A DNA stretch of 64,000 nucleotides. Source: Prosapia bicincta (Eukaryota > Arthropoda > Insecta > Hemiptera > Cercopidae). Both the position numbers and the translations under genes were made by a program. The notes below the pieces were generated by a model. It was not told where the DNA came from, did no database searches, and worked only from the letters and a program-made list of their open reading frames with translations. Below, piece after piece: positions 7,498 to 63,640 of the stretch; the stretch's first letter is position 1; each line of letters begins with the position of its first letter. Location: the NCBI GenBank assembly GCA_036971475.1, contig JBAIZL010000001.1, positions 75,238,271-75,302,270 of the forward strand, in the 5' to 3' direction.

Positions 7498-7544
7498 ACA
7501 CTTGATGCACGTTTCGGTTACAAGTTAAAGATCTTCAAAAGTAC
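7498..7544 (-). ncRNA. Hammerhead-like motif, family I (decayed)
   Basis: On the minus strand: stem I GUACUU/AAGUGU (6 pairs, two wobble), core UUGAAGA (C3 replaced by U), GAAA, stem III segment ACGUGCAU, C at position 17. Stem II is poor in this copy. Position 3' of a PLE coding fragment supports the reading. Confidence 0.35.
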
Positions 7545-7868
7545 TAGTAAATCGAATATTAAAAAACTACACGAACGGAACCTATGAAGTGGCGGGGATC
7601 AAAAACACATTGGTTACAGGTATAACTTTAACGCTTGCAAATGAAATAATTTTCTCAAATTTAAACAAAACGTTAGAAAACCTTATACGCAGGGGCTTAC
7701 TTTATCATTAATAAATTAAAGAATCTAAAGGTGAATTAGAAATAGGGCCTTTATTATTATGCATTAAATTATTATTTCTATTTTCATGTTTGGGGATATT
7801 TTCAAAACCTTTTAACAAACTTCTACTATTTTAAACTCATTTAATATTATTTCAATCTAAATTATAGC

Positions 7869-8192
7869 TCATATCAATTTATGTGTTCCTAAACTCGATT
7901 TTTCTGGCTGGAGGTATTTTATATGCGAAATATGATCTTTAAATCTGTGACAATTTTCCCTCTGGTCTGGGCGATAAACTTTATACTTTATATCAATTCG
8001 TACAGCATATTTCATATATTCCCGACTTTTCGGAAGGACGTATATTGTCTTTCGGCTTAAGTTGTCGAAACTTTTATATTCAATTTTCAAATAGAACTTT
8101 TTGAGGATGCTATTCAAACGTTCAATAATATTTCGTTTACTATCCGCTTCTTGTCCGTCTCTAGGAAAAATGAGAAAAATGAGTTTTACCAA
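7869..8192 (-). pseudogene. Penelope-like element fragment, GIY-YIG region
   Basis: The minus-strand frame reads RNIIERLNSILKKFYLKIEY, then HRFKDHISHIKYLQPEKSSL. This resembles the stretch before and within the GIY-YIG endonuclease of Penelope-like retroelements, where a phrase like R-KEH-RH-L-QPEKSA-AEH is usual. The YIG core itself is not recognisable, so the copy is very old. A hammerhead-like motif lies 3' of it on the same strand at 7498-7544. Confidence 0.5.
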
Positions 8193-8869
8193 ACTAAAAA
8201 AATGGGTTTACCAAACTTGAATGCGCTTTTGTGAACCATTCAATCTTCGTTCTTTGAGGATGAAAGAATGAAAATTGCAGAATATCGGATCAGGCGAATC
8301 TAAAATTTCTTCCTACAGGTGGACATGCAGCAATTGTATAGCAAACCTACCTGGCCGTCTAGGGAATATGAAACACCCCAACATGAAATGAAAACATTTA
8401 ATTTAAAGGTCGTGAAATCTTAATTTACGCTATTCTAACCCTGAAAATGACAGGAAAGTTAAGTAATTGAATATTTATAAATGCATTTGATTGAGGCATT
8501 GAAAATACTGTGTTACTCAAACTCAATTTTGATTTATGTTAGAAAACAGATATAGAAATAACAAAAACGTGAAATTACGCACTAGGGACGTCCATAGACT
8601 AGAGTGGTTGACTTTGACGAAACTTTAATAGGATATTTACAAGCTATTGCAAAACGCAGAGTTTCAAACATTATGCTAAGTATTGAGATTTCATAAATCG
8701 ACTGGATTTATATAATTGGATTTCTATGGACTAATTAGAAGAAAATCCATTTGACCTAAGAATGACCTCAGGAATTTACTCAACTTAGCAGGACGCTCGA
8801 TACTAAATTCATTTTTTCTGCAATTAGAGGGGAGAATATCTCCAAAGATGTTAAATGGGTAAAACCCGC
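8193..8869. other. No gene recognised
   Basis: AT-rich sequence with nothing recognisable on either strand. Confidence 0.5.
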
Positions 8870-10185
8870 ATGCTGCACAAGAGGTGGTTGGTGTTCAAGG
8901 GACGGTTGCTCCATAAGAGGTGATTAATGTTCAAGGGATGGTTTCTGCACAAGAGTCGGTTAGTGTACAAAAGACAATGGTGTACAAGAGGCGGTGGCTG
9001 CACAAGTGGCGCTGGCTGAATAAGAAGCGGCTCGTCCTCAAGAGGCGTTGGCTGCATAAGTCGTAGTTGCTGCACAAGATTCGGTTGCTACACAAGAGAC
9101 GATTGCTACACAAGAGGTGGTTCGAGCTGAAGAGGCGGTGGCTGCACAAGATGCGGTGGCTGCACAAGAGGCGATGGCTGCACAAGAGGCAGTGGCTGCA
9201 CAAGAGGCGGTGGCTGCTCAAGAGGCAGTGGCTGCGCAAGAGACGGTGGCTGCACAAGAGGCGGTGGCTGCACAAGTGGCGGGGCTGCACAAGAGGCGGT
9301 GGCTGCCCAAGAGGCGATGGCTGCACAAGAAGCGGCTCGTCCTCCAGAGGAGTTGGCTGCATAAGTCGTGGATGATGCACAAGATTCGGTTGTTACACAA
9401 GAGGTGGTTCGAACTCAAGAGGCGGTGGCTGCACAAGAGGCGGTGGCTGCACAAGAGGCGGTGGCTGCACAAGAGGCGGTGGCTGCACAAGAGGCGATGG
9501 CTGCACAAGAGGCGGTGGCTGCACAAGAGGCGATGGCTGCACAAGAGGCAGTGGCTGCACAAGAGGCGGTGGCTGCTCAAGAGGCAGTGACTGCGTAAGA
9601 GACGGCGGCTGCACAAGAGGCGGTGGTTGCACAAGTGGCGGGGCTGCACAAGAGGCGGTGGCTGCCCAAGAGGCGATGGCTGCACAAGAAGCGGCTCGTC
9701 CTCCAGAGGAGTTGGCTGCATAAGTCGTGGATGATACACAAGATTCGGTTGCTGCACAAGATTCGGTTGCTACACAAGAGGTGGTTCGAACTCAAGAGGC
9801 GGTGGCTGCTCAAAAGGCGGTGGGTGCACAATTGGCGGGGGCTGCACAAGAGACGGTTGCTGAACAAGAAGCGGCTTGTCCTCAAGAGGCGTTGGCTGCA
9901 TAAGACGTGGTTGGTGCACAGTATTCGGTTGCTACACAAGAGACGACTGCTACACTGCAACTGAAGAGGCGGTGGCTGCACAATAGGCGGTTGTTGGACA
10001 AAAGGTGGTTGCTGCACAAGATGCGGTTCGTACTCAAGGTGGAGGGGGTTGCTGCACAAGAGACTATTCGTACTCAAGGTGGAGGGGTTGCTACACAAGA
10101 GACGGTTGCTGCAAAAAAGATGGTTGCTCATCAAGAGGTAGTTACTGCATTAGAGGCGGTTGTTGCACAAGAGGATGGCGGAACC
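8870..10185. repeat. 18-bp G-rich minisatellite with higher-order units
   Basis: The basic unit is GCTGCACAAGAGGCGGTG (18 bp), with six-residue period in all frames: AAQEAV in one + frame, KRRWLH in another, CSHRLL on the minus strand. A longer unit of about 350 bp, marked by AAGCGGCTCGTCCTCCAGAG at about 9329 and 9687, is superimposed. Several overlapping frames of 60-185 codons stay open on both strands because the unit is in register and lacks stops. No splice sites or conserved domain suggest translation. Confidence 0.93.
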
Positions 10186-10853
10186 TGAGCATCCTCAATT
10201 TATAACGTGTTTAAAATAACCTCGTATAAAGTCACTTTAAAGCGATACCGTATGTATACAACAGCCACGTTTGGACGTGCAATTATTTTCGCATATCTAA
10301 ACTTGTTACTATGCTTTGCGCTTGCTTTACAAATTTATATATTTTAAGGAGCTTTGATAAATGATCAGTGGAAATGACTTTTTGGGAAGCATAATTTGTA
10401 TTCATTGTCACGCGTGACAGTTGCGATAAAGGGCACAATGGGGAATTGCGCCAGACACACAACGCCCGCGAACGTTCTTATTGCTTTTTATATTATACCA
10501 GGAAAGGTAAACCGACAAAATATTTTAATATAGAAAGGCGATATCATCACTAAGCGTTTCGATGTTAAACATCGAAATAGTCATTCTTTTATTTAAAAAA
10601 AACAGGTGGTACACCAACGTACCTTTCCTCATTCAGCTAAATATTACCTTATCCAGCCCATTTCCATTGGCTATGTTAGATTATGCTTCACCTATATAAA
10701 AGGCACAAACGTTTTATTCTTCGATCTTGCACAAGACGAGGGATGTTTGTTTCCCTAATTTGCTACTAAAAGATGTACCTCTGCAATATCTTTTTATAAC
10801 TCTTTCATTCTTTGTGTGTAAATTAAACTAATATATGAATTACAATGTTTCAG
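10186..10853. other. Unique sequence before exon a
   Basis: AT-rich intronic sequence of the Sidestep gene. The only notable element is the TATA-like box at 10693-10700. Confidence 0.5.
10693..10700 (+). promoter_or_regulatory. TATA-box-like sequence upstream of exon a
   Basis: CACCTATATAAAAGGCAC is a close match to the metazoan TATA consensus, about 155 bp before the first visible exon. It could be an internal promoter or chance in AT-rich DNA. No start codon joined to the Sidestep frame was found after it. Confidence 0.25.
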
Positions 10854-10967
10854 TGCCTCCTAAGAAACTGTCCATCCTGGACAGCAGAGGAGACCCCGTG
10901 AAACACGTCACTCTGGGCCCATTCAACGAAGGAGTGTCTGTCAATATAACGTGCATTTCCAGTGGAG
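10854..10967 (+). CDS. Sidestep exon a: first half of Ig2
   Basis: The acceptor is TTTCAG at 10848-10853 and the donor GTAAGT follows 10967. It reads (V)[12 protein letters not shown] ... [11 protein letters not shown] and enters and leaves in phase 1. It holds the B-strand cysteine of Ig2 and an N-glycosylation sequon (NIT). The preceding exon is outside the window or unrecognised, so the first codon is completed by an unseen upstream G. Confidence 0.9.
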
Positions 10968-49394: not shown

Positions 49395-49624
49395 TTTTTG
49401 GACTAGGAGACTGACAGACTTACCTTGGTAAGAGTCCACACTGTAGTCTTGAAATAGAAACACATAAAAGCACTTAAACAATGATATATTTCAACCACAC
49501 AGTGGTTTTTGTCAATCGAAGAGAAAACACAAAAAGAAATATGAGAGAATGAAATAAAATAAATACAAGTTGTAATCACAGATTGTGTAGAGTAGAAATC
49601 AGATGTCACAGATGCACAGATTAA

Positions 49625-49773: not shown

Positions 49774-52196
49774 TCTTGCAAACATAGACGTATGTCTTGC
49801 AAAATTCAAACCACCCTCCAACTGGGATCCACCACCACTACCACCTGATCACCCCATTGAACTTTACATCAACTTTATCATGCAAAGCATCACCGATATA
49901 AATTTCACTAAAAATCTGAAGACTAAACCTAACCTTACCAAATTATGAAAAAGCGACAATATTTTCGTTGAAAAACAATAAAGATATTATGATTCTTCCA
50001 GCAGATAAAGGTTCAACCACTGTCATTATGAACAAAGAAGACTACATCAAAGAAGCAAATAAGCAACTGTCAGACATCACAACATACAAAATACTTACAG
50101 ATAACCCCACTACAGAATTCAACAATTTACTCTCGGACCTACTCAAATATACAGCTCCTGAACAAAATATTTCGGAAACATCTCTAAAATTATTATATAA
50201 TGAAAACCCCTCTACTCCTCAATTCTATATATTACCAAAGATCCTCAAAAACATAATCCCTCCACCTGGTAGACCAATAATTGCTGGCTGCAATTCAGTA
50301 ACGGAAAGAATTTCAGCTTTTCTCGACTCACACCTTCAACCCTTAGTAAAGAACCTTCCATCACATACCCAGGACACCAATCATTTCATAGATCGACTCT
50401 CACAAATATCTGTACCTCTACGCCCGGTAACTATTTTGGTCACCATAGATGTCACCTCTCTCTATACCAACATCCCTCATGCACACGGCCTATCTGCAAT
50501 AGAGAATTTTCTAAACAAACGCCCAGGCAAGCCTTCTCCCACTACACCTTTTCTTGTGAACCTGACCAGGTTCATCCTCGAGAAGAACAATTTTCAGTTT
50601 GAGGGAAGGAACTACCTTCAAATAAAGGGAACAGCAATGGGCACCAGAATGGCACCATCGTACGCAAATCTGTACATGGGATTGTTGGAAGAAAGTTTTC
50701 TAAAGACACAAACACACCAGCCATTATGTTGGTATAGATATATAGATGACATCTTCCTAATTTGGACACAGGGTGCTTCAACACTTGAGGCATTTTTAGA
50801 CAGCCTGACACAATTCTCCACACTTCAATTTACCTGGGAGAAATCTACAACAGCCATCACCTTTTTGGATGTAGAAGTAACACTCCAGAATGGAAATATC
50901 AACACAGGAATTCACATCAAACCGGCAAACCACCTACAATATCTCCATTTCAACAACAACCACCCAATAAACATAAAACGATCCATTCCATACAGTCAAG
51001 CAATCAGGGGTAAGAGAATCTGTTCGAATGATAGGGAATTGGAAGATTTTAATAGAAAGATATCAACAGCCTTCCAGAGAAGAGGATACCCAAAAAAACT
51101 CATTGAAAACCAAATTCATTCAGCACAATCCTCGGTTCACCATAAACCACAAACAGAACAAAATAAACTGTCTTTAATAACAGACTACCATCCTGGTCTA
51201 CATAAACTCAACAAGATATTGAAAGATGGCTTCAAAATTCTTCAAGCTTCCGTCCACACCAAAAATCTTTTCACCGATCCACCGCAAATTTGGTACAAGC
51301 AACCTCCCAACTTGAAAAACATCTTAGTACATCCTAAACTACCAGACCCTGATGCAAAGAAACCACACAAACTTCCTCATGGCTCCTTCCCATGCAATAG
51401 ACCTAGATGCAAGACGTATCCAATACACCCCTCAGCAAATAGTTTCAACAGCCAAACAACAAAAATGGTCTTCAAAATACAGGGTCATCATAATTGTACA
51501 TCGAAAAATGTCATATACCAGCTGCAATGTAAACTTTGCTCAGCACAGTACATAGGCCTGACTACGGATGGTTTGAATATCAGAATGAATGGCCACAGAC
51601 ATGATGTTAAAATTATGAATATGGATAGACCAACAGCTCAACATGCTGCGAGTCACAACATCACAACTTTTGATGACTGCTATACCACAAAAATAATTAA
51701 ATCACTCCCCCCTGATTGCAATCCCTCAGAACTGAGAAGGTGGGAACTATCATACCAGTGGTATACCAAATCCAGAGAATCCCCTAACCTCAATATCAGA
51801 TAAACCCATTCATTTTTTATTTATTTATTTAATTTTTTTTTTTTCCCCTAATAGCCTTATCTCTTTTCCCCTGACAGACTTATATAAACTATAATCACTC
51901 ATATGCTCATGGAAACAATATATATATCTATCTTTAATCTGTGCATCTGTGACATCTGATTTCTACTCTACACAATCTGTGATTACAACTTGTATTTATT
52001 TTATTTCATTCTCTCATATTTCTTTTTGTGTTTTCTCTTCGATTGACAAAAACCACTGTGTGGTTGAAATATATCATTGTTTAAGTGCTTTTATGTGTTT
52101 CTATTTCAAGACTACAGTGTGGACTCTTACCAAGGTAAGTCTGTCAGTCTCCTAGTCCAAAAATCTAAATAATCTTTACCAACCAAAACTAACCTA

Positions 52197-52610: not shown

Positions 52611-53006
52611 TAGGTTAGTTTTGGTTGGTAAAGATTATTTAGATTTTTTGGACTAGGAGACTGACAGACTTACCTTGGTAAGAGTCCACTCTGTGGTCTT
52701 GAAATAGAAACACATAAAAGCACTTAAACAATGATATATTTCAACCACACAGTGGTCTTTGTCAATCGAAGAGAAAACACAAAAAGAAATATGAGAGAAT
52801 GAAATAAAATAATATAATTATAATCACAGATCCGTGATTACAATTATTTTATTTCATTCTCTCATATTTCTTTTTGTGTTTTCTCTTCGATTGACAAAGA
52901 CCACTGTGTGGTTGAAACATATCATTGTTCAAGTGCTTTTATGTGTTTCTATTTCAAGACTACAGAGTGGACTCTTACCAAGGTAAGTCTGTCAGTCTCC
53001 TAGTCC

Positions 53007-53051
<45 letters not shown>

Positions 53052-54306
53052 CAACATAGGTTATTCAAATACAAGAATATTTATTAATTTATATTCAAAG
53101 CTTTTCATTGGTAAACAGTACCAACATCATCAGGAATGAAAAATACAATAATGCAAGATATAGGCCTAAAACATATGTTAAATTAGAAATAGAATTGTTG
53201 CTAAGTTTATACAAATTGCCAAGTTTATTTTGTTGCTGTTATATTATAGACATTGAATATAGTATCAAATTTAGAATGTAATTGTATTTGTTCTTTTATT
53301 AATTTGTTATGTATATTCATTCTTAATCCTTTATTAATTTTTTTTATAAGTTTCATATTTTCAAAATTTGGAAATTGGTGCTTATTATTAATACAATGAT
53401 TTCCAAAATTTGATTTATATATTTCTGGATTTTATATAAATTCGAATTATGAAGGTTGAAGGATAACCTTTTAGTCAAAGCAGTCCAGTTTTTTTATTGC
53501 GTCTATGGCAACCGTTTCAGCTGTTTATAGATATCACATCACTGATCTATGCTGACACTATAATCTAAACAAGCAATAAAGTTAGGCACAGTGGATTTAT
53601 TAAAGTTACAATTATTAGCAGTTAACCCAGTGCAGATCTAATTACATTCTATGCACAATGCCTTTTGATGATGCTATAAAAGCAAAAACTGATTATAAAC
53701 TGCTATAAAAGCATATCAGGTAATTATAATTATCTACTACATTACAAAAAATGGAATTGATGTTGACAACCAAATAAAAAGTTAATATTCTGTTAACTGT
53801 TATTAATAACAGGTTGTTATTTACAGTTTTTGTGGTCTAAGAAACTTGGTCACTGTCAATGGAGAAATAAAGTATAATTTCAACACATCTAGGAAATTGA
53901 CAAAAAAACCTTCATGAAAAGAAATCATTATCACTAATCAAAGTTTCATTGAAAATTGTTCCTGAATTCCTATTTTCTCTCTCCAGCTGATTAAAACAAA
54001 AATTAAATAAAAGAACTTACAGACATAAATTCCCCAAAGCAAAATGTGACATTTACCACATAAACAGATATACACGAAATAGATGAATGTATTCCATGAA
54101 ATATCTGTCTAAAGGTGCACATGTATAAACGTTTATTGAACATGATAGTTACAGGAAAAGAATGTAACAGAAGAGGGCCGCAAATAAATTTCAAAAGAGA
54201 AGATATTTTAATTTTTAAATTTTAAAAATACATTAATATTATTATTATTGTATTCGTAGATGACAAATTATCAATAACATCATGTAAGCAGCATATTTTA
54301 GTTTAG

Positions 54307-54530: not shown

Positions 54531-56804
54531 GTGTTTAAAATTCTATTTTCTTCATTTTTAAATAGGGAGAAAAAATCTCACCACATCATGTAATTTTCCA
54601 TAACAAGACTGATAAATGGTTAAAGTCTGAGTTTCCACTGTGTAGATTAGCATGATTTCTATCTTTACTGTTGACTAACTTTTACTTTTATGCTGGTGTA
54701 ATGCTGCAAGATATGATTGTTTAGAATAATTTTAAAATTTCCAACAATATTTTCACCTCTAAAGGATGCAGAAGGAATTGTACTACAAATATAAAACACC
54801 TGTGCTGTATACATAATTGTAAGGACAGAAAAGTAGAATAAGGTTTAACTATACAAAGGACAAAATAAAATGAAATGCAGCATTAATTACTGTTGAAGGT
54901 AGGGTTGCTTTCTCAACTGGAAAAAGAAAGGTGTTTAACAGTTACTTAGAAAGCTCAATAATCAAATGTATATGAATATTATAAGTGATTGTATGTATTC
55001 AATATATGTAGGTGTACTATGTGTTTAATCAGTGATTTAATATTTGACTAGGATACTATGAATGGTGCAAAATACTTCTTATTTGTTGCACAGTTAGTTC
55101 ACACTTTCAAATCCAAACATTATTAAAGAAAAATTCATGTAGCCCTAATAATTAACAGCACACTGAAACTGAATAAGACATAGAAATTAATCAAATATGC
55201 TTAGTAGTGGTGATTTGAGATTAGAATTCTATAGGCAACAACCATAACGCATAAATTATTTTATATGATGGACAAAATCTCTGAAGTATTTTAACTGCAA
55301 AAACAGTGCTACAATGCTAGGAAAGTCAGAGGTAAATGAATCCTTGTAAAAACTTTATATAAAACAGAATTCCTGCAAATAAACAATTGAAATACATTCT
55401 TGTATGAATGATAAAATTATTTGACAGACTTACCTTGGTAAGAGTCTACTCTGTAGTCTTGAAATAGAAACACATAAAAGCACTTAACCAATGATATATT
55501 TCAACCACACAGTGGTCTTTGTCAACAAAGAGAAAACACAAAAAGAAATATGAGAGAATGAAATAAAATAAATATAAGTTCTAATCACAGATTGTGTAGA
55601 AATCGGATGTCACAAATGCATAGATTGTGCATCCAAATCCAAATATAATCATTACCAACCAAAACTAACCTGATAAAATTATTTTTATTTTTCCTGGAAA
55701 AAAACATAATGTGTTTTTAAAAAAATATTAATACAAAAGTAAATAATAATAACTACGGAAATTACAAAAATAAAAAACAGAAAATGACAATAGATAAAAA
55801 TAATATTTCTATATAATTCGTAACTAGAATATCAGGTAGATACTACAAAGAAAACATATGGCTAGGGGAATTTATTTCTTTTTTATGAACATTGTAACAT
55901 ACATTTTCCCAGCTGAAGTATTTCAGAATACTTCATAAAGTAGTTATACTTAAAAAACCCTTGAAAAATATCTGTTTGTAAACTGCATAGATAAAATGGG
56001 TAATTGATAAATTCCAAAATGTGCAAAAAAAAGAATTTGTTGGAGACTTCTGAGTTACTATTCTGAAAGAAACTTGCTTTTTAATGAAAAATATAAGATC
56101 TCCTGCACTTATAGTAATGGACTTGGGATTAAAGAAGTGAGACATTTTTGCCATGACCTTTTTTTCGAACAAACTATTAACGGCAGCCTCACGATTTAGT
56201 AACTTTAATTGTCACAAGTTGTTGTTCTATAAGTAAACTCTACTCACTTTGTCTAACACAGCCTAAAACATGTCAGCACGACAGAAAATCATTAGGTTAT
56301 GACTATGTCGTTAACATTGAATCTAATCTAGGCCATGGAATATTGATTAGGATCACTGCAAGATATGTACTTCAGATTTGCTAGACTTGAAAGTTCATAT
56401 CCTAAACGGTTTATTAAAAGTATAGTAACATTTCCTACATTTGGAGTTTTGCAAAGAGTCAGTCCCTCGTAGTAAATATAATCTACTTTTCTGCTAGGAT
56501 TTATATTCACATTTAGAGTATCATTTGCAGGTAATTATGATACTCTAAATAAGTATAGTCTTAATTAAATTTACCTAATTAGGTTTAATAAATATCAATA
56601 AAATCACTTTAGGTTTATAAAATTGTGTTGTCAATTTCAATTTATCTATCAAAGTATATTTTAATTACTTCCATTCATAACTACTTTTTACACTAAAATT
56701 TTTTTCAACTCATCAGACATGTTTGTTTTCAGCCAGCCACATTAGCGCCAATAATCGAAGAAGACTCCAGTAAGAGCCAAACACAAATAGTTACTCGTTT
56801 CTGA
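10854..56804 (+). CDS. Sidestep-family cell-surface receptor, 5'-partial, 12 exons
   Basis: Joined exons: 10854-10967, 11061-11264, 22414-22565, 22935-23079, 26420-26550, 31352-31511, 33377-33673, 35781-36095, 36956-37171, 40556-40635, 43208-43348, 56733-56804. Every junction is GT..AG, phases agree throughout, and the sum is two leading bases plus 675 codons including the stop. The product is the C-terminal 674 residues: Ig2 (about 1-105), Ig3 (106-204), Ig4 (205-301), Ig5 (302-400), an FN3-like domain (401-505), a membrane span (about 517-539) and a cytoplasmic tail (540-674). Family signatures are [34 protein letters not shown] and YDGGLPQEF. Sidestep proteins are surface ligands for Beaten-path receptors in motor axon guidance and neuronal partner recognition. 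The signal peptide and Ig1 exons were not found in the 10.8 kb upstream. Which Side paralogue this is cannot be decided. Confidence 0.93.
10968..11060 (+). other. 93-bp stop-free intron (exitron-like)
   Basis: It is bounded by GTAAGT and TTTTCAG, yet is a multiple of three and has no in-frame stop, so the reading frame runs through from exon a to exon b. Retention would insert 31 residues in the B-C region of Ig2, immediately before [10 protein letters not shown]. Confidence 0.8.
11061..11264 (+). CDS. Sidestep exon b: second half of Ig2
   Basis: The acceptor TTTTCAG ends at 11060 and the donor GTAAGT begins at 11265. It reads [18 protein letters not shown] and then [19 protein letters not shown], giving the core tryptophans and the F-strand cysteine. 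The GRPLP-WW stretch is typical of Side family Ig2. The 93-bp intron before it is unusually short for this gene, whose other introns run from 0.37 to 13.4 kb. Both ends are phase 1. Confidence 0.92.
11265..15074. other. Start of Sidestep intron b-c, no gene recognised
   Basis: AT-rich intron sequence. Small open frames (11717-11932, 13658-13870, 14230-14451) show no family resemblance. Confidence 0.5.
15075..16070. repeat. 59-bp minisatellite
   Basis: About sixteen imperfect copies of a roughly 59-bp unit built from GCGACAAAGCTTTTCCAACC, AACATCCATCTCCCACAACA and TTTGAGGGCTATATTTGCT. A doublet of about 240 bp is visible: the group at about 15300-15540 is repeated in shortened form at about 15540-15720. 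Open frames on both strands are repeat artefacts. Confidence 0.92.
16071..17341. other. No gene recognised
   Basis: AT-rich intronic DNA. The segment at about 17250-17300 (GGACCAGTCCGCGAATTGGT) may belong to the end of the adjacent hAT remnant. Confidence 0.4.
17342..18371 (-). pseudogene. hAT-type (ZBED5-like) transposase remnant
   Basis: Three collinear minus-strand blocks are recognisable: [20 protein letters not shown] (after the BED zinc finger), then [20 protein letters not shown] with [20 protein letters not shown], then [20 protein letters not shown] with [18 protein letters not shown]. These match the order in ZBED5-like hAT transposases, including the CTDGAxAM motif. Stops and frameshifts separate the blocks, so it is dead. 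It lies in a Sidestep intron in antisense orientation. Confidence 0.82.
18372..18893. other. No gene recognised
   Basis: Intronic sequence, with a more GC-rich patch at about 18700-18890 of unknown origin. Confidence 0.4.
18894..19651. mobile_element. Non-autonomous hAT element with 8-bp target duplication
   Basis: The element spans 18902-19643 (742 bp). It begins CAGTGGCGGTTTGTCC and ends with the inverse GGAGCCGCCACTG. It is flanked by identical 8-bp copies GGTAAAGC at 18894-18901 and 19644-19651. An exact 8-bp duplication is the mark of hAT transposition. No transposase frame lies inside. Confidence 0.88.
19652..20558. other. Intronic sequence with (TA)n tract
   Basis: It contains a (TA)n run at about 20438-20467 next to a small CCCGG/CCGGG hairpin. 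The open frame 20114-20608 runs through this tract and is not recognised. Part may be leftover LINE sequence. Confidence 0.4.
20559..20891 (-). pseudogene. Jockey-type LINE reverse transcriptase C-terminal fragment
   Basis: The minus-strand frame reads [20 protein letters not shown], then [20 protein letters not shown]. This is the end of the RT region in Jockey-clade non-LTR retrotransposons (LYPLLNR-S-LSL-NK, then LQ-FQNK-LR-I--AP-Y). The fragment is truncated at both ends. Confidence 0.8.
20945..21730 (+). pseudogene. R1/Jockey-group LINE fragment: RT tail and RNase H
   Basis: On the + strand [20 protein letters not shown] resembles the post-RT segment (TGA-RTTPTAAL-VLL-LPPL), followed by an RNase H domain: [49 protein letters not shown], and [20 protein letters not shown]. 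The catalytic pattern D-E-D-D/E appears as N-E-D-E, so the first Asp is lost. Internal stops and a frameshift show it is dead. It lies in opposite orientation to the Jockey fragment just upstream. Confidence 0.82.
21731..22413. other. No gene recognised, T-rich
   Basis: The + strand is strongly T-rich, giving two hydrophobic open frames (21719-21967 and 21967-22200) that I regard as compositional. The region ends at the exon c acceptor. Confidence 0.5.
22414..22565 (+). CDS. Sidestep exon c: first half of Ig3
   Basis: The acceptor is GTTGCAG ending at 22413 and the donor GTAAGT begins at 22566. It reads [19 protein letters not shown] and then [21 protein letters not shown]. The LxGENxPLSAxRxYE block followed by a WWKG motif is highly characteristic of Sidestep-family Ig3. 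It enters in phase 1 and leaves in phase 0, so the 368-bp intron splits the Ig fold between strands C and D. Confidence 0.93.
22935..23079 (+). CDS. Sidestep exon d: second half of Ig3
   Basis: The acceptor is TTTCAG and the donor GTGAGT follows 23079. It reads [20 protein letters not shown], then [12 protein letters not shown], ending at DGWKLNIY. It carries the F-strand cysteine and an NKT sequon. It enters in phase 0 and leaves in phase 1. A 35-bp minisatellite begins about 45 bp beyond its donor. Confidence 0.92.
23125..23531. repeat. 35-bp intronic minisatellite
   Basis: About eleven copies of a 35-bp unit ACATTCATATTACCATGTCT plus GCTGACAATAGCATT sit just after exon d. Copies are very similar, suggesting recent expansion. 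There are no spacers, so it is not a CRISPR array. Confidence 0.95.
23899..23941 (-). ncRNA. Hammerhead-like motif, family F, left arm
   Basis: On the minus strand: stem I ACCU/AGGU, core CUGAGGA (all conserved positions intact), weak stem II, GAAA, stem III segment AUAUACAU, A at position 17. The stem III segment differs from the palindrome AUGUACAU by one transition. Confidence 0.5.
24004..24046 (+). ncRNA. Hammerhead-like motif, family F, right arm
   Basis: Stem I ACCU/AGGU, core CUGAGGA intact, stem II only UUG/CAA, GAAA at 24031-24034, stem III AUGUAUAU, A at position 17. Again one transition away from the palindrome AUGUACAU. Confidence 0.5.
24096..26131. other. Sidestep intron d-e, no gene recognised
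   Basis: AT-rich intronic DNA without a recognisable gene or array. Small open frames look random. Confidence 0.5.
26132..26174 (+). ncRNA. Hammerhead-like motif, family H
   Basis: Stem I CAGCA/UGCUG (5 pairs, 26132-26136 with 26170-26174), core UUGAAAA (U at 3 and A at 8), stem II GCGCU/AGUGC (5 pairs, one wobble) with loop GACCU, then AAAA in place of GAAA, stem III ACGUGU, C at position 17. G12 to A and the stem III change both fit CpG decay of GCGAAAC and ACGCGU. No PLE coding sequence was recognised nearby. Confidence 0.55.
26420..26550 (+). CDS. Sidestep exon e: first half of Ig4
   Basis: The acceptor is TTACAG and the donor is GTAGGG, which is weaker than the others. It reads [20 protein letters not shown], then [20 protein letters not shown] and WKHN. 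The ExxxVYFEC-xIxSNPW-xxVxWKHN pattern is the usual I-set Ig4 of Side proteins. It was identified from phase continuity with its neighbours (phase 1 in, phase 0 out). A hammerhead-like motif lies about 245 bp upstream in the intron. Confidence 0.9.
26551..27294. other. Sidestep intron e-f, first part
   Basis: AT-rich intron. The stretch after about 27000 probably belongs to the same inserted element as the THAP fragment, but this is not proven. Confidence 0.4.
27295..27498 (+). pseudogene. THAP-domain fragment (transposon-derived)
   Basis: It reads [20 protein letters not shown], then [20 protein letters not shown] and [12 protein letters not shown]. The layout C-x4-(C)-x-n-C-x2-H with FKFP and W matches a THAP zinc-coordinating DNA-binding domain. 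The second zinc cysteine is replaced by Phe (NPGF where C-x4-C needs Cys), so the fold is probably lost. THAP domains occur in P-element-like transposases. A stop follows after 67 codons. Confidence 0.65.
27499..31351. other. Sidestep intron e-f, remainder
   Basis: 3.8 kb of AT-rich intronic DNA. The short GC-richer patch at about 28270-28390 stands out from its surroundings but was not identified. No gene or array seen. Confidence 0.5.
31352..31511 (+). CDS. Sidestep exon f: second half of Ig4
   Basis: The acceptor is TTGTTTAG and the donor is GTAAGC. It reads [20 protein letters not shown], then [20 protein letters not shown] and [13 protein letters not shown]. The GxYTCxAxNxEG motif is a standard I-set Ig C terminus. 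NQS is a potential N-glycosylation site. Phase 0 in, phase 1 out. Confidence 0.94.
31512..33376. other. Sidestep intron f-g, nothing recognised
   Basis: AT-rich intron. Two small open frames at 32355-32781 show no domain. Confidence 0.5.
33377..33673 (+). CDS. Sidestep exon g: complete Ig5
   Basis: The acceptor is TGACAG and the donor GTAAGT begins at 33674. One exon encodes the whole fifth Ig domain: [40 protein letters not shown], then [19 protein letters not shown]. Disulphide cysteines lie at INC and LWC, and a second pair (PVC and EPC) is available. This single-exon layout contrasts with the two-exon Ig2, Ig3 and Ig4. Confidence 0.95.
34590..34848. mobile_element. Pogo/Tigger-like terminal-inverted-repeat remnant
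   Basis: The left end CAGAACCTCTCACATCAACC and the inverse of the right end, AGTAGAACCCCTCTTAATCG, resemble each other and the CAGTAGAACCCC ends common in pogo/Tigger elements. About 259 bp, no coding sequence, diverged ends. Confidence 0.5.
35244..35285 (-). ncRNA. Hammerhead-like motif, family B, left arm
   Basis: On the minus strand: stem I UGAG/CUCA, core UUGGCAA, stem II GGGA/UCCU, GAAA, stem III AUGGUCGU, C at 17. The stem III segment is ACGGCCGU with two C-to-T changes, one of them at a CpG. Confidence 0.5.
35328..35369 (+). ncRNA. Hammerhead-like motif, family B, right arm
   Basis: Stem I UGAG/CUCA, core UUGGCAA (35332-35338), stem II decayed, GAAA at 35354-35357, stem III ACGGCUGU, C at 17. 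One transition away from ACGGCCGU. Confidence 0.5.
35781..36095 (+). CDS. Sidestep exon h: fibronectin III-like domain
   Basis: The acceptor is CTCCAG and the donor GTAAGT begins at 36096. It reads [20 protein letters not shown], then [20 protein letters not shown] and [20 protein letters not shown]. The NC-x-V-x-C-xxGxDGGLPQ block marks the single membrane-proximal FN3 domain of the Side family, with two cysteines in place of the usual FN3 tryptophan core. Three N-linked sequons (NCS, NVT, NIT) are present. Confidence 0.94.
36096..36955. other. Sidestep intron h-i, nothing recognised
   Basis: T-rich intronic sequence without recognisable features, ending at the tandem CAGCAG acceptor. Confidence 0.5.
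36956..37171 (+). CDS. Sidestep exon i: transmembrane segment and start of tail
   Basis: It reads [11 protein letters not shown] and then a 23-residue hydrophobic span [23 protein letters not shown], followed by the basic stop-transfer [11 protein letters not shown]. The acceptor is a tandem CAGCAG: splicing at either AG keeps the frame and changes the protein by one alanine. The donor is GTAATA at 37172. If the donor is ignored the frame reads 21 further codons to a TGA at 37234-37236. Confidence 0.92.
37172..39569. other. Sidestep intron i-j, first part
   Basis: AT-rich intron with a short (GT)n run at about 37998-38033. The open frame 37625-37915 is not recognised. Confidence 0.5.
39570..39812. 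mobile_element. Foldback element, family F-related
   Basis: ATTGGAAAGAACCCCAAT near the left end is inverted as ATTGGGGTTCTTTCCAAT near the right, with AACAAGTTACT against AAGTAACTTGTT further in. A hammerhead-like motif lies between the arms. Confidence 0.65.
39704..39738 (+). ncRNA. Hammerhead-like motif, family F
   Basis: Core UUGAUGA (C3 to U only), stem II AUGAC/GUUAU with loop AUG (5 pairs, one wobble), GAAA at 39727-39730, stem III AUUUACAU, A at 17. The continuation CATAAGG matches the left arm of the family F foldback near 23.9 kb. Stem I is weak. Confidence 0.45.
40556..40635 (+). CDS. Sidestep exon j: short cytoplasmic exon
   Basis: It was found by phase matching: exon i ends in phase 1 and exon k must be entered in phase 0. 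This 80-bp block has acceptor TTGACAG and donor GTAATA and supplies exactly that shift. It reads (E)[20 protein letters not shown] and PCIRNE. Direct joining of exon i to exon k would hit a stop after two codons, so this exon or an equivalent is required for the long tail. Confidence 0.78.
40636..42364. other. Sidestep intron j-k, first part
   Basis: Contains a decayed family B PLE end at about 40755-40850 (CTTGCCTGTAGTACTACTTA ... CATTGTCAACTCAGA). The small open frame 41249-41530 is not recognised. Confidence 0.45.
42365..42735. mobile_element. Foldback element with duplicated arms
   Basis: The phrase TTGTAATTTTATACAA with TACCTAT occurs twice on the left (about 42409 and 42480). Its inverse TTGTATAAAATTACAA occurs twice on the right (about 42612 and 42690). 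Each arm is thus a tandem pair of a 70-80 bp unit. The centre is about 90 bp. No coding sequence. Confidence 0.75.
43208..43348 (+). CDS. Sidestep exon k: tyrosine-motif tail exon
   Basis: The acceptor is TTTTCAG and the putative donor is GTATAG at 43349. It reads [20 protein letters not shown], then [20 protein letters not shown] and KPTKESM. The TYAELSLP block recurs in Side family tails from memory. Three tyrosine motifs are visible: ITYAEL, SVYSSL and TVYAQI. If the donor is not used, the frame adds one valine and stops at TAG 43352-43354, giving an alternative shorter C terminus. Confidence 0.88.
43355..44654. other. Start of Sidestep intron k-l
   Basis: AT-rich intronic sequence. No feature recognised. 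Confidence 0.5.
44655..44860. mobile_element. PLE terminal repeat, family C, foldback form
   Basis: TTGCTTGTTGTAATCATCTT starts it. AACTAAGTGAATACATAGGG on the left is inverted as CCCTTTGTATTCACTTAGTT on the right. The same left end recurs at 57181 and inverted at 47400-47465. Confidence 0.7.
44759..44805 (+). ncRNA. Hammerhead-like motif, family C
   Basis: Stem I UUUGCU/AGCAAG (6 pairs, one wobble), core UCGUAAA (U3 and A8; A6 replaced by U), stem II GGAAU/GUUUU (wobble-rich), GAAA at 44790-44793, stem III ACACGU, C at 17. The core departs from consensus at two or more positions. Confidence 0.4.
45025..45175. mobile_element. PLE terminal repeat fragment, family D
   Basis: ATTACTTGCGACCAGACATT and TACACTTGGAGCAAACG recur, with small changes, at about 63538-63610. 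A decayed hammerhead-like motif is at 45131-45159 on the minus strand (CUGAAGA core intact, GAAA changed to CAAA). Confidence 0.65.
45880..45970 (-). mobile_element. PLE terminal repeat fragment, family B
   Basis: It matches one arm of the 35.2-kb foldback and the end of the 62.4-kb PLE. A second, more diverged copy is at about 46455-46540. Both are truncated. Confidence 0.75.
45917..45958 (-). ncRNA. Hammerhead-like motif, family B
   Basis: On the minus strand: stem I UGAG/CUCA, core UUGACAA, stem II GGGA/UCUU (wobble), GAAA, stem III ACGGCCGU (perfect palindrome), C at 17. This copy keeps G5 and A6 of the core, and only positions 3 and 8 differ from CUGANGA. Confidence 0.6.
46682..46724 (-). 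ncRNA. Hammerhead-like motif, family C
   Basis: On the minus strand: stem I GCU/AGC, core UCGUAAA, weak stem II, GAAA, stem III AUGCGU, C at 17. It lies 3' of the GIY-YIG fragment on the same strand. An inverted partner is at 47340-47379 on the + strand, with a better stem II (AGAAC/GUUUU). Confidence 0.4.
46985..47286 (-). pseudogene. PLE GIY-YIG endonuclease fragment
   Basis: It reads [20 protein letters not shown], then [20 protein letters not shown], and after a frameshift [28 protein letters not shown] is the GIY-YIG core as found in Penelope-like elements. Truncated and frameshifted. Confidence 0.78.
47628..47732. mobile_element. Small foldback, family F-related
   Basis: AACAACAATAACCCTTGCTA is inverted as AGCAAGGGTTATTGTTGTTT. 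Between the arms is a decayed hammerhead-like motif (47656-47686, + strand): core AUGAUGA, short stem II, GAAA at 47675-47678, AUGUAUAU, C at 17. Confidence 0.6.
47733..49280. other. Sidestep intron k-l, middle
   Basis: AT-rich intronic DNA. No gene recognised. Confidence 0.5.
49281..49392. repeat. (TA)n microsatellites
   Basis: Two TA tracts (about 49281-49323 and 49351-49391) abut the left end of the PLE. Similar tracts lie at about 49627-49660, 52201-52237, 52561-52608, 53033-53050, 54323-54368 and 54454-54527, most of them at PLE repeat boundaries. Confidence 0.9.
49483..49515 (-). ncRNA. Hammerhead-like motif, family A, left repeat
   Basis: On the minus strand: core UUGACAA, stem II AACCAC/GUGGUU with loop UGU (6 pairs after one unpaired A), GAAA, stem III AUAUAU, C at 17. 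Stem I is not evident. Further copies: 52733-52765 (minus), 52891-52923 (plus) and 55493-55525 (minus). Confidence 0.42.
49968..51803 (+). CDS. Penelope-like element polyprotein: reverse transcriptase + GIY-YIG endonuclease
   Basis: 611 codons without a stop. RT motifs: [16 protein letters not shown] (residues 11-26), [16 protein letters not shown] (101-116), motif [15 protein letters not shown] (157-170), motif [16 protein letters not shown] (221-235), motif C YRYIDDIF (256-263, the catalytic YxDD), then FLDVEVTL (299-306). A C-terminal GIY-YIG endonuclease has [19 protein letters not shown] (515-533) and R-x-NGHRHD. This order defines PLE proteins. The Met start is arbitrary: the frame opens earlier with [11 protein letters not shown], and the true N-terminal part ([17 protein letters not shown], 49772-49948) is in another frame ended by TGA. 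One small indel near 49940 therefore seems to have broken an otherwise intact gene. Confidence 0.93.
   Translation: MKNNKDIMILPADKGSTTVIMNKEDYIKEANKQLSDITTYKILTDNPTTEFNNLLSDLLKYTAPEQNISETSLKLLYNENPSTPQFYILPKILKNIIPPPGRPIIAGCNSVTERISAFLDSHLQPLVKNLPSHTQDTNHFIDRLSQISVPLRPVTILVTIDVTSLYTNIPHAHGLSAIENFLNKRPGKPSPTTPFLVNLTRFILEKNNFQFEGRNYLQIKGTAMGTRMAPSYANLYMGLLEESFLKTQTHQPLCWYRYIDDIFLIWTQGASTLEAFLDSLTQFSTLQFTWEKSTTAITFLDVEVTLQNGNINTGIHIKPANHLQYLHFNNNHPINIKRSIPYSQAIRGKRICSNDRELEDFNRKISTAFQRRGYPKKLIENQIHSAQSSVHHKPQTEQNKLSLITDYHPGLHKLNKILKDGFKILQASVHTKNLFTDPPQIWYKQPPNLKNILVHPKLPDPDAKKPHKLPHGSFPCNRPRCKTYPIHPSANSFNSQTTKMVFKIQGHHNCTSKNVIYQLQCKLCSAQYIGLTTDGLNIRMNGHRHDVKIMNMDRPTAQHAASHNITTFDDCYTTKIIKSLPPDCNPSELRRWELSYQWYTKSRESPNLNIR
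52043..52075 (+). ncRNA. Hammerhead-like motif, family A, right repeat
   Basis: Core UUGACAA (52043-52049), stem II AACCAC/GUGGUU, GAAA (52066-52069), self-complementary AUAUAU, C at 52075. It lies 240 bp 3' of the PLE stop codon on the same strand. Stem I is not evident, so cleavage is doubtful. Confidence 0.45.
52238..52515. mobile_element. Nested foldback element, family G
   Basis: GAAGTTAATATATTACTATT on the left is inverted as AATAGTAATATATTAACTTC on the right, arms about 43 bp. It lies between two (TA)n tracts and two facing family A repeats. Its right arm contains TGTAGATAATGGTGGATAA, identical to the unit of the 4.6-6.9 kb minisatellite. Confidence 0.75.
52307..52338 (-). ncRNA. Hammerhead-like motif, family G
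   Basis: On the minus strand: core UCGACAA (U3, A8, and U4 replaced by C), one unpaired U, stem II GGUC/GACC with loop AAGU, GAAA, stem III AGGUGCCU, C at 17. Stem I only about two pairs. Confidence 0.42.
52625..53010. mobile_element. Inverted pair of family A PLE terminal repeats, no gene
   Basis: GGACTAGGAGACTGACAGAC near the left end is inverted as GTCTGTCAGTCTCCTAGTCC at the right end. The two repeats meet at an AT-rich palindrome near 52820-52850. A poly(A) and (TA)n tract follow. Confidence 0.88.
53040..53480 (-). mobile_element. PLE 3' fragment, family E
   Basis: On the minus strand [20 protein letters not shown] and [20 protein letters not shown] resemble the C-terminal tail after the GIY-YIG domain in PLEs, followed 3' by a terminal repeat with a complete hammerhead-like motif. 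A small related piece (CAAGAATAT..ATT) occurs at about 54420. Confidence 0.6.
53093..53137 (-). ncRNA. Complete hammerhead ribozyme-like motif, family E
   Basis: On the minus strand: stem I AUUC/GAAU (4 pairs), core CUGAUGA intact (plus-strand 53127-53133), stem II UUGGUA/UACCAA (6 perfect pairs, loop CUGUU), GAAA intact, stem III as palindrome AAGCUU, U16.1 present and U at position 17. All conserved core bases of the hammerhead are present. With so short a stem III, cleavage may need a dimer, as proposed for PLE and retrozyme hammerheads. Confidence 0.65.
53481..55422. other. Intronic DNA with poly(A)/(TA)n tracts
   Basis: Long TA tracts at 54323-54368 and 54454-54527. No coding feature recognised. 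Confidence 0.5.
55423..55672 (-). mobile_element. Solo PLE terminal repeat, family A
   Basis: CAGACTTACCTTGGTAAGAG ... AGAAATATGAGAGAATGAAA ... ACCAACCAAAACTAACCT matches the left repeat of the family A element. It has lost about 30 bp around the CATAGATTGTG region. Confidence 0.85.
55673..56732. other. End of Sidestep intron k-l
   Basis: AT-rich, nothing recognised before the pyrimidine tract of the exon l acceptor. Confidence 0.5.
56733..56804 (+). CDS. Sidestep exon l: last coding exon
   Basis: The acceptor TTGTTTTCAG ends at 56732. In phase 0 it reads [20 protein letters not shown] and TRF, then TGA at 56802-56804. The intron before it is 13.4 kb. Support comes from the strong pyrimidine tract, exact phase match, absence of earlier stops and poly(A) signals 130-275 bp downstream. 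The C-terminal VTRF fits the class I PDZ ligand pattern (S/T-x-hydrophobic). Confidence 0.75.
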   Translation, partial: PATLAPIIEEDSSKSQTQIVTRF

Positions 56805-57545: not shown

Positions 57546-58963
57546 AAACATGAGGCTGAAAAAGTCGTTAGACTAAAATTTGTTCTGCAATTGTGAGTTG
57601 GTAATTGTAAGAACTTATATTAATAGAATGTCTTGTCGCACGTAATTTAATATTGTCATAAGTGTCTAATCATTACCTTTCCTTGAAATAAAATGATATC
57701 AAAGGGTTGATTGAATTAAGAAAGGCTAAAAAAAAGACTTTCCCTGATACTACCAAAGGGAGAAAATTGATTCTTGTGGATATAGTCACTAACCTGAAGT
57801 CAGCCTACCCTCTAAACTGAAGAAGTTGAAAAAAAAAGGATGTGAAACAATACCATATAGAATTTGAAAACATTGAAAAACAAACAAGAAAAATTTATAA
57901 TGAAAATATATTAGAATTAGCAGACTGCCTTTTAAGCTAGAGTGTGACAACTTCACAAGAATGTCACTGTTCAATAACAATATTTTTAAAATTCCAGAGA
58001 TGGTACATTTTTTATTAAAGGAATTTAAAGCATTTAAAATACAATTTTAAAAACTTATTTTGGTATCTATACAGTTTTCAGATGAAAATAATGTTCTAAA
58101 ACAAATTACACCTAAGATCTATAAAGTCCTAAGGAACATGAATTAAAATTAAACTTTAATTATGTAACACTATTTATTATGATGATAGATGTTGAATATT
58201 GCAGTTATATGTTATATAATTAATTGTTAACCTGCAAAGTTATGTGCATTCTAATTGGATTAATAAGTGGTATGTTTCAAGGAGGTGATCGTTTCTGTTT
58301 GTTATTTCCACCATGTTCCTGTTTAGATTGGCCTGGACCTAGCATCTTGAGATGTAATTAAATAGATAATTTAAAGCAAAAATAAAAACAATATCTTTAC
58401 AACTCATTTTAAACACTTTACATTAAAAAAATTCTAACTAAACATTGCTTCTGTTTCAAATGAAACTTTTATGTATCATATTTTCCCCTCTTCCTTGAAT
58501 TCAATGCATTTTTAAAACTAATCTTCTTGCTCAGACAGATCATGGTGAAGTGGGGCGATAATTATAGTTACACGGCAACTATTACCCTTTCGCTCATCTA
58601 ATAGCTTGCAGAGATCTGATATCTTTACCATTTCTTACACATATTATTAATGAACAAATTCACAATTTTTTAAATAACTGTTCCAATTTGTTTTTGAATG
58701 CTGGTAAGTAATATTAATATTATTTTATTGACTAAAATAATGTTACAATTTAAATCCTCAAAATATATATTTTTTTAATAATGTATATATAAATATAATC
58801 TTACTACATAACACACTTAAATTTATAAATTAAAGGTTTCCTTATAATACTAAGCATAAACTTATACTTTGAATGTTGATTCAAAGTATCTGCTTGGGAT
58901 AAATTTGTATTAAAAAAAAATGAAAAATGTTTGAAACAGTCTATCTGATTGACAAATGAAGTA
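57546..58963. other. No gene recognised
   Basis: AT-rich intergenic DNA downstream of the Sidestep gene. Confidence 0.5.
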
Positions 58964-61469: not shown

Positions 61470-62356
61470 AAACATCTTAATTCCATACACCCAAAACTAA
61501 CATACACTATCGAAACAGAACAACAAAACTCACTCAACTTCCTACACCTTACAATTAAACGAACAAACAAACACATAAATTCAACATATACCGAAAATCC
61601 ACTAGTACCAATACGACCATTCACAGCTCCTCAAACCACCCACACCACATAAACTAGCTGCTTAAAACACCATTAGACAAAGAAGAACACTACCAGGAGT
61701 TAAACACCATAAAATATATAGCACAAACTAACGGATACAACCCAACAATGATTGACAAATTATACAACTGCCTAAAAAACAAACCTAATAACTCAAATAA
61801 AAACATACAACAAGACAACCCCATAAAATACTTATCAATACCATACAGATCATCCAAAACCCACAATCTAACCAACACACTACAAAAATATAACTACAAA
61901 ATAGCTTACTTCACACACAACACTCTCAATAAACAATTTAAACCCGACAACAAAATCAACAACATTTACAACTCCACTGTAGTTTACAAACTAACTTGCA
62001 GTTCGTGCCGCAGATTTTACATAGGCCAGACAGGGAGGTCCTTCTACACACATTACCAAGAACATATAAAAGCACTAACAAACAATAATTACCAATCAAA
62101 CTTCGCCGATCATCACAACTCCATAAAACATAACTATATAAACATAACATCTAACCTACAAATTCTTCATAAACAACACAGAAATAACCAACACTACACA
62201 ACCGAACAATATGAAATATACAGAAACTTCAAACTACACCCTACACACATACTCAATACACAATTACATTACAACTCACACGCACTTTTTGACATCATAA
62301 GTCCTAATACACACAAAATACACCCACACCACCATAATATCCCAACCCCACCCTAA
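61470..62356 (+). pseudogene. PLE reverse transcriptase tail and GIY-YIG endonuclease (frameshifted)
   Basis: The first block reads HPKLTYTIETEQQNSLNFLH and LTIKRTNKHINS (RT motif D/E region, FLDLTI in relatives). A frameshift near 61650 leads to a second block, ELNTIKYIAQTNGYNPTMID, then VVYKLTCSSCRRFYIGQTGR and SFYTHYQEHIKAL, a good GIY-YIG domain. The stop is at 62354-62356. The upstream RT motifs A-C are absent, so this is a truncated copy. Confidence 0.85.
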
Positions 62357-62394
62357 CACCCAAACCTACATAAACCTTGAGATCAGTTACGGTC

Positions 62395-62436
62395 TGAGTT
62401 AACAATGGGACACATCTCCCGAAACGGCCGTCCTCA
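62395..62436 (+). ncRNA. Hammerhead-like motif, family B, best-preserved stems
   Basis: Stem I UGAG/CUCA (62395-62398 with 62433-62436), core UUAACAA (62399-62405), one unpaired U, stem II GGGA/UCCC (62407-62410 with 62417-62420), GAAA (62421-62424), stem III palindrome ACGGCCGU, C at 62432. It starts 39 bp after the PLE stop codon. G5 is A in this copy, but G in the 35-kb and 46-kb copies. Confidence 0.58.
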
Positions 62437-62475
62437 ACAAATATAAGTAAGTGCTACTATAGGCAAGTTATAACC

Positions 62476-63517
62476 ATTTCTAAGTGTTAGGGAAAAAATA
62501 TAGGTTGCCGTAAGGTTACGATACATGAAAACATATCCATACTTTGGGTGTTTATATTGTGTGAAATGTTACATTTGAAATTATTGCGATATAAAATGTT
62601 AGATTCTAACATTGGAAACAATTGACAGTTTACCCCCGATTGTCATGGTACTTTTGGTTTGATACACATAAAACTTACATTTACCTGGTATAAGAAGCCT
62701 ATTTATAGCCTACAATTTCTATTTTTCCTATAGAAGGAAACGACTACCCCTCATCTATTTTTTAGCAATTACTTTTGGCTATTAGAACCTATAATTTTTT
62801 TAAAAATTATATAACTCATCCAAGTCCAAGCTCCTATGCTTAGTAAGACATGTTTTCAAAAATAGGCATTTAAGGCAATCATCCCTCATCTAGTATATGT
62901 GACTACTAGAAGACATTGTAAAGATGTTTGTTTATTAAAAGAAACGTTATTAGCTTTGTTTATTCTAAAACGTTATTTAATTTAATTTACACACAGGAGA
63001 TAAACTTTCAAAACGTTTTAAAAAAATCAAACTTTAGTATCATATAGGCCTATTCAAAACGAGATTGTTAAATTTTCTGTTGAATAATATACATATCAAC
63101 CTAGATGTTAAACATTGCCATTTAAATCTTCGTGCGCGCGAGCACGTGTATGTTATAACGTTTGTTGAAGCTTCACTCCACAAAATCTGAACAGCCCATG
63201 CTATGTGGAATCTAGCAGGATCCAGGAGACGGCACGAATTAACAGAGATATTAGCTTTCTTCTCTTCAAATCTATACAATCTTACTTATTTTTCACTTCA
63301 AATTCACTTATTTTTGGGGAAAATGAAAAGTCAAGTAATTCTTTTTAATTTAGAAAAAAATGAAAAAACTATGTTACAAAAGCAATTACTTTATTGATAT
63401 TAGAAGTTAAGTAGGCTATCATTTGAGAAATGGGCATCATTTTTGCCTGACGTGATCAAAGCCAAAATGGCGGCCAAAAGAGTATAGATATAAAGAAATG
63501 ATTTTTTGAAAAATAAA
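62476..63517. other. No gene recognised
   Basis: AT-rich sequence. Small open frames look random. Confidence 0.5.
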
Positions 63518-63640
63518 TTATGTTATTACACTTTTGCTATTACTTGCGACCAGACTTTTTGTTAATTAAAGTTGTTAAATTGTTAACTTACACTTGGACG
63601 AAACGTTTTCGTCTTACGACTTCTTCAGCCTCTTATTTTT
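63518..63640 (-). mobile_element. PLE terminal repeat fragment, family D
   Basis: It shares TTACTTGCGACCAGAC, GTTAACTTACACTTGGA and TTACGACTTCTTCAGCC with 45025-45175. Confidence 0.7.
63601..63628 (-). ncRNA. Hammerhead-like motif, family D
   Basis: On the minus strand: core CUGAAGA intact, one unpaired A, stem II GUC/GAC with loop GUAA, GAAA intact, palindrome AACGUU, U at 17. Stem I is not convincing. Alternatively stem III is ACG-UUU-CGU with C at 17. Confidence 0.45.

Follow-up and report, generated by a model that had tools for sequence, protein, structure and literature searches.

The window analyzed here is a 64,000-nucleotide stretch of the spittlebug Prosapia bicincta (Hemiptera; Cercopidae), positions 75,238,271 to 75,302,270 on the forward strand of contig JBAIZL010000001.1. 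It carries coding remnants of Penelope-like elements (PLEs) together with 22 hammerhead-like ribozyme motifs in nine families. A sequence-only reading of the same DNA had counted about twenty such motifs in nine families, and that count is borne out; our family names (L, D, A, F, H, B, E, P, and C) cannot be mapped one to one onto its letters. In the genome at large, many copies of these motifs occur as head-to-head pairs whose two arms stop at two different 3' points, a regularity that bears on how PLEs insert.

Coding frames and hammerhead-like motifs of the window

Two open frames tie the window to PLEs. The longer, of 627 codons at 49920..51803 (+), belongs to family P and matches RVT_1 at an E-value of 3.1e-10, with a weak C-terminal GIY-YIG match (E 0.093) below the cut-off. 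The second, at 61658..62356 (+), is a C-terminal PLE frame with GIY-YIG that is truncated at its N-terminal side and ends shortly before a family A motif (62391..62440, +). It is 44% identical to P0002, a homologue that passes the Pfam GIY-YIG cut-off at 26.1 bits; for the frame as such, Pfam returned nothing at E <= 10. A coding piece lies upstream on the same strand for families P, A, and H, and weakly for C (tblastn E 0.19). Two further weak PLE coding pieces, at 40911-41062 (-) and 21906-22178 (-), with tblastn E-values of 2.6e-5 and 4e-4, have no same-strand motif downstream.

The motifs were scored with structural descriptors and with the model R1, which was built from the D, E, and F motifs only, because a MAFFT alignment of all families together misplaced A and B; R1 does not represent A, B, or H. 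Family L is a single decayed copy at 7496..7546 (-; R1, 21 bits, E 0.005). Family D forms a head-to-head pair with its left-arm motif at 23895..23945 (-; descriptor score 17.5) and its right-arm motif at 24000..24050 (+; relaxed descriptor), both within the R1 training set. The right arm extends about 37 nucleotides further in 3' sequence than the left, and TCCTTATTAT stands on either side of the pair, at 23835..23844 (+) and 24133..24142 (+), as a presumed target-site duplication. Family A, whose core is of the U3-A8 type described below, contributes the left arm (35242..35289, -) and right arm (35324..35371, +) of one foldback, with arm 3' ends at +99 and +61, in addition to the motif 3' of the GIY-YIG frame, a copy at 45915..45962 (-), and a remnant without a core at 46497..46536 (-).

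The remaining families vary widely in preservation. The family F motif at 39695..39746 (+; R1 E 1.2e-10), in the right arm of a foldback, is decayed by an extra T in the core, and the family E motif at 47648..47694 (+; R1 E 9.4e-7) by a 4-nucleotide gap in stem II and a change of C3 to A. Family B is represented by a motif with an intact core at 63593..63636 (-; descriptor 13.6), one at 45124..45167 (-) in which GAAA has become AAAA, and a decayed one at 57548..57591 (+); the sole family C motif, at 53089..53141 (-; descriptor 23.4), has an intact core. Family H motifs lie at 44757..44805 (+), where the core is lost and the motif occupies the right arm of a foldback with 44658-44745 (-); at 46680..46726 (-), 3' of the PLE coding piece 46814-47194 (-); and at 47336..47381 (+).

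Family P makes up two pairs and a fifth copy at 55484..55526 (-; R1 E 0.084 on 55491-55526). In the first pair the left-arm motif, at 49474..49516 (-; R1 E 0.11), has the proximal 3' end (unit position 172), and the right-arm motif, at 52042..52084 (+; R1 E 0.11), has the distal one (unit position 196), with a tail at 52167..52194 (+). In the second pair the left arm, with its motif at 52724..52766 (-; R1 E 0.033), has the distal end and a tail at 52613..52640 (-), and the right arm, with its motif at 52890..52932 (+; R1 E 2.2 on 52880-52938), is untailed. A foldback at 42377-42736 had been a candidate family and was dropped, as the motif is not visible there.

How far do these motifs exceed chance? 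With a strict descriptor, three window motifs score 14 or more, a number that none of 200 local dinucleotide shuffles reached (mean 0.255 hits, most 2; best single shuffled score 29.4). With a relaxed descriptor allowing two core mismatches, six window hits score 14 or more, where 20 shuffles gave 1.7 on average and 5 at most. The sequence-only reading had proposed that shuffled controls should give fewer hits, which is true of the strict descriptor but scarcely of the relaxed one, and it had also proposed a covariance-model search, in which the Rfam hammerheads matched nothing in either the window or eight genome loci. The window result covers all hammerhead models of Rfam 15, RF00163 (Hammerhead_1) included, at E <= 10; a Hammerhead_1 search of the insect's own genome gave no matches, as did control genomes, and a canonical hammerhead descriptor without the extra nucleotide described below found nothing in the window. 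Most window copies are weak taken alone, and since the relaxed signal is near chance and Rfam is silent, the evidence must come from other copies in the genome.

Intact members of this ribozyme class thus go undetected by standard RNA-family models, while the foldbacks score below threshold as microRNA precursors. The PLE foldbacks at 52745-52911 and 44709-44836 give low E-values against Rfam microRNA precursor models, below gathering scores, and such matches are a possible source of false microRNA annotation.

Copies of the motifs across the genome

Searches of the insect's own genome returned first-look candidates for every family searched (A, 1513; B, 941; E, 1075; F, 1638; P, 177; H, 3218), of which 40 per family were scored, and each of these families is dispersed across the genome. 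The consensus sequences of families B (25 rows), E (32 rows), and F (35 rows) have perfect cores, a palindromic loop, and stems superior to those of the window copies, even though the window copies of E and F are broken and stem I of the B copy at 63593..63636 is repaired only in the consensus. For E the consensus reads AACCTT CTGATGA T GCTAAC TGT GTTAGC GAAA TGTACA TC AAGGTT; in the window copy CTGATGA is replaced by ATGATGA, and the 4-nucleotide gap is present. F is similar. Intact copies of C and D occur in loci fetched for other families (C in both arms of L016), and a further family, K, has an intact motif in L054.

Family A departs from this pattern. Its consensus, CTGAG TTGACAA T GGGA CACATC TCCC GAAA CGGCCG TC CTCA, was drawn from 45 rows that include four window copies (one repeated as L001) and eight near-identical array units. 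Core and stems are kept with C3 and G8 both changed, to U3 and A8, at positions that pair in the folded core. According to Perreault et al. (PMC3088659), covariation from C3-G8 to U3-A8 is found in natural hammerheads and is active in vitro.

Two features recur across families. Of the 26 distinct strict hits in the fetched loci (281,772 bases), 25 have a single unpaired nucleotide that separates A9 from stem II, a detail that the sequence-only reading had overlooked; two shuffles of these loci gave no strict hit of 14 or more. This nucleotide is T in 54 of 55 D, E, and F motifs, which were selected by similarity to the consensus, and in the families that bear U, the stretch from A9 through the U to the opening base of stem II reads AUG. 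One or two inserted nucleotides at hammerhead junctions are already on record (PMC10085705), and a lizard PLE has its start codon at the start of stem II (PMC11167929). The second feature is the stretch from A15.1 to U16.1, which is palindromic: ACGGCCGT in A, AACGTT in B, AAGCTT in C, ATGTACAT in the D, E, and F consensus, and ACGCGT in K. At the same site family H has CGCG in three of nine rows and TGCG in six. Across 30 aligned D, E, and F motifs, the covariation score is 0.355, against 0.054 to 0.095 when the partners are slid, and doubly changed cells number 51, where shuffles average 19.1.

The layout that the sequence-only reading had ascribed to all its families is therefore a property of most of them. 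The genome consensus keeps it in B, E, and F, intact copies keep it in C and D, and A has it as the U3-A8 type; H lacks it, P is doubtful, and L is one decayed copy. The same division emerged from the consensus per family which that reading had named as its check, with B, E, and F (and A, given U3-A8) on one side and H and P on the other. Its description of nine dissimilar families is right as a count, but their independence was overstated, because D, E, and F share a 51-nucleotide geometry and one palindromic loop. One result speaks against a generally high density: in the loci of families A and B, 137,234 bases in all, R1 detected a single D/E/F-type motif.

Outside the window, the coding link is firm for two families. 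A same-strand coding piece of the GIY-YIG endonuclease frame lies less than 600 nucleotides upstream in 26 of 48 copies of A and 12 of 30 of B, at a nearly constant distance from the cleavage site that is typically 84 nucleotides in A (from residue 228) and 90 in B (from residue 217). Same-strand upstream coding pieces are found in 1 of 10 copies of C, 1 of 39 of F, and 0 of 32 of E. Coding hits on the opposite strand within 600 nucleotides (nine for A, five for B, two for C) are expected, because the copies form foldbacks. A motif 3' of a coding fragment on the same strand, as the sequence-only reading had described for five of its families, is thus seen for our A and B in the genome and, within the window, for P, A, H, and weakly C. 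That reading's assignment of the motifs to PLE terminal repeats is right in kind for most families; PLE membership of those other than A, B, P, and H is inferred.

Family A also forms a tandem array. At L019 (C146:291514002-291515246), at least eight nearly identical 163-bp units adjoin an intact family C foldback, and their core, UUGCCAA, carries a further core change. Near the 3' end of L018, beside the family A array, lies the motif-like sequence TTGATGA G GGCAAC..GTTGCC GAAA CG, whose stem I is poorly defined. The array invites a reading in which these sequences are nonautonomous retrozymes, short hammerhead elements that form small circular RNAs and are copied in trans by a PLE reverse transcriptase. 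The metazoan retrozymes described in PMC7229834 are 150- to 450-bp tandem repeats with type I hammerheads, and coding pieces are rare beside copies of E and F. We found one such array only, however; most copies are foldbacks, truncated at variable 5' points, rather than unit-length repeats, and loop-loop contacts are described for retrozyme hammerheads and not for PLE ones. We consider a retrozyme origin quite improbable.

Head-to-head pairs and the 3' ends of their arms

The arms of the head-to-head pairs end in two discrete clusters. Measured in nucleotides from the cleavage site, these lie at 82 to 95 and 113 to 119 in family F, 41 to 53 and 73 to 80 in E, 47 to 65 and 98 to 104 in A, and 78 to 86 and 121 to 126 in B. 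Among 43 pairs of these four families, 34 have one arm in each cluster, one has both arms in the proximal cluster, none has both in the distal cluster, and eight cannot be classified because an arm lies in neither. Discordance thus holds for 34 of the 35 classifiable pairs. Single arms use both ends about equally (16 distal and 17 proximal in A, 11 and 12 in B).

We then took the rule as a prediction for two new families, using all the inverted-neighbor copies that the searches listed, and all eight H pairs and all seven P pairs were discordant. Their ends lie at 121 to 133 versus 163 to 166 in H, and at 172 (179 in L114) versus 192 to 196 in P. In total, 49 of 50 classifiable pairs are discordant, each of the six measured families has two discrete 3' ends, and the near and far ends are 17 to 51 nucleotides apart. 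The D pair, the two P pairs, and one H pair of the window also obey the rule; the H2/H3 pair of the window, with ends at 146 and 166, is not clearly assignable.

Target-site duplications accompany some of the pairs: flanking repeats of at least 7 bp occur at 10 of 43 pairs and at none of 568 mismatched-flank controls. The fetched P pairs (L111 to L117) are bordered by (TA)n at either end, a pattern suggestive of target preference. In L075, at positions 847-1398, the distal end of one arm carries a 32-bp unit made up of the family F tail, repeated in tandem about seventeen times, and this tail seems prone to repeated copying.

The paired arms could in principle arise by self-priming, in which the first cDNA snaps back and primes its own copy, and rotifer Penelope foldbacks, with their inverted head-to-head arms and small junction palindromes, have been interpreted in this way (PMC3846280). 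In our copies, too, the arms are often truncated at different 5' points with a short gap between them, and a hairpin loop could give the same. Snapback predicts equal 3' ends, however, and is disfavored because the ends are unequal in 34 of 35 pairs and again in all 15 pairs of the prediction test. Moreover, the two arms of L116 differ at four variable sites in a family whose copies are 98 to 100% identical. We judge self-priming highly improbable. Priming on both target strands is favored instead, because the arm ends are unequal and because, in a lizard PLE studied in vitro (PMC11167929), both target strands are cut and extended. The one-near, one-far rule is of use as a genomic footprint of PLE insertion that separates self-priming from two-strand priming.

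One template RNA or two

Four of nine P pairs have arms that disagree at sites variable across the family, the boundary site aside (four in L116, two in L117, one each in L112 and L114). These differences point to two template RNAs, and where a single site is involved recurrent mutation could be an alternative cause. In 7 of 43 pairs, the shorter arm begins 0 to 8 nucleotides after the cleavage site, an observation that was chosen post hoc and is biased by motif-based fetching, so that it is suggestive at most.

We propose, and regard as reasonably probable, an account with the following parts. The motifs would represent the 3' terminal region of Penelope-like retrotransposon families; six of the nine families would keep a minimal hammerhead that is probably able to cleave as a dimer; and the head-to-head copies would be made when both cut target strands prime reverse transcription, the near start point of the element RNA being used on one strand and the far start point on the other. 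The two arms may be copied from two RNA molecules, and the palindromic loop III may allow two motifs to pair. In the lizard PLE (PMC11167929), reverse transcription starts inside the RNA, and the "tail" is the sequence between two start sites.

Several results weigh against this account. Within-pair arms are more alike than arms of different loci in 28 of 39 cases, so that most pairs need not have had two different templates, and most arms run beyond the cleavage site, which implies that the usual template is uncut RNA. L037 and L038 are possibly one duplicated locus. Rfam found no hammerhead in the eight genome loci although intact copies are among them, and a coding piece is hardly ever present in E, F, or D. 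In the 30 D, E, and F motifs, two of the five covariation measures do not rise above shuffles (6 versus 5.9 for pairs changed on both sides; 18 versus 19.7 for further pair types). Family H, although abundant, has a consensus core of UCGUAAA in which the canonical core is broken (9 rows), and the core and stem I of family P are off register. The 98 to 100% identity of the 40 scored P copies means that P is young. With one family abundant, the other young, and both cores off consensus, an intact ribozyme may not be needed; judged by their sequences, H and P are hammerhead-like only.

These same families raise the question of whether the hammerhead likeness is coincidental in several families, with the hairpin and GAAA serving some other end, such as protein binding, and catalysis lost or never present. 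H retains stem II and GAAA without the core, P is young yet off register, relaxed descriptor hits are close to chance level, and hammerhead mutants of the lizard PLE had no effect on insertion in vitro (PMC11167929). On the other side, every core letter is kept in B, C, D, E, and F, in the consensus or in intact copies, and in A the joint change at C3 and G8 preserves the pairing and is known from other natural hammerheads, with activity proven in vitro (PMC3088659). We hold a coincidental likeness to be unlikely.

Together, the off-consensus cores of P and H and the lizard mutants suggest that cutting may be dispensable for insertion, which would leave room for the palindromic loop to pair two RNAs. 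A retroviral dimer-initiation loop joins two RNAs, and the PLE hammerhead might likewise be primarily a pairing hook, with loop III joining two RNAs and each cut strand priming on its own RNA at the near or the far start. We think this distinctly unlikely. If true, it would explain the palindrome in every measured family, the strict one-near, one-far rule, the arms from different source RNAs, and the spread of families with a damaged catalytic core.

Other features of the window

Exon-like open frames occupy 10832-11299 and 35759-37236, with an Ig domain and with frames that resemble an extracellular domain and a membrane segment; judged by eye, they are possibly parts of one cell-adhesion gene with the repeats in its introns. 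Tandem repeats lie at 1-792 (164 bp), 4587-7040 (31 bp), and 8850-10149 (18 bp). The first of these was compared with the family A unit and is not the same.

Comparison with known systems

Minimal type I hammerheads in PLEs were reportedly described by Cervera and de la Pena in 2014 and by Lunse, Weinberg and Breaker in 2017. Minimal dimer-forming PLE hammerheads are already published, and the present motifs are additional members. A literature search found neither the one-near, one-far rule nor a template-pairing role, although two key primary papers on PLE hammerheads were outside its coverage. Reviews call the role of the hammerhead in PLEs unknown (PMC7761336). Any genome that contains PLE foldbacks can serve to check the rule, which asks directly whether two RNAs are used per insertion.

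As PMC7761336 and PMC6466107 describe them, minimal PLE hammerheads number in the thousands per metazoan genome, in tandem and with palindromic loops. A coral has more than 6000 hammerhead motifs in 16 families (PMC7229834). Our motifs resemble these minimal hammerheads in that stem III is short or absent, loop III is palindromic, copies are numerous, the location is a terminal repeat of a PLE, and the proposed action is that of dimers (PMC7761336 and PMC6466107). They differ in that one unpaired nucleotide constantly separates A9 from stem II, in that one family (A) has U3-A8 throughout, and in that families H and P have spread with an off-consensus core. Metazoan retrozymes carry a type I hammerhead in short tandem repeats, which the single 163-bp array here resembles apart from the further core change in its units; unlike retrozymes, our copies are mostly truncated foldbacks.

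The closest parallels are with two elements. Poseidon of Anolis carolinensis (PAc; PMC11167929) resembles the present elements in having its hammerhead close to the ORF-pLTR region and a second start 30 to 40 nucleotides away (the "tail"); both strands are cut and extended in vitro, as is proposed here. By that paper's numbers, its reverse transcription starts about 85 to 92 nucleotides after the hammerhead cut site; the corresponding figure in family F is about +86. In PAc in vitro the two strands showed no difference in where reverse transcription started, whereas the arms of one insertion here almost always differ. Penelope of Adineta vaga (PMC3846280) also has head-to-head inverted terminal repeats, with target duplications of 8 to 10 bp and a 31-bp tail that is optional on one inverted repeat. 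What is an option in Adineta vaga is a near-rule in Prosapia bicincta, where one arm is tailed and the other untailed.

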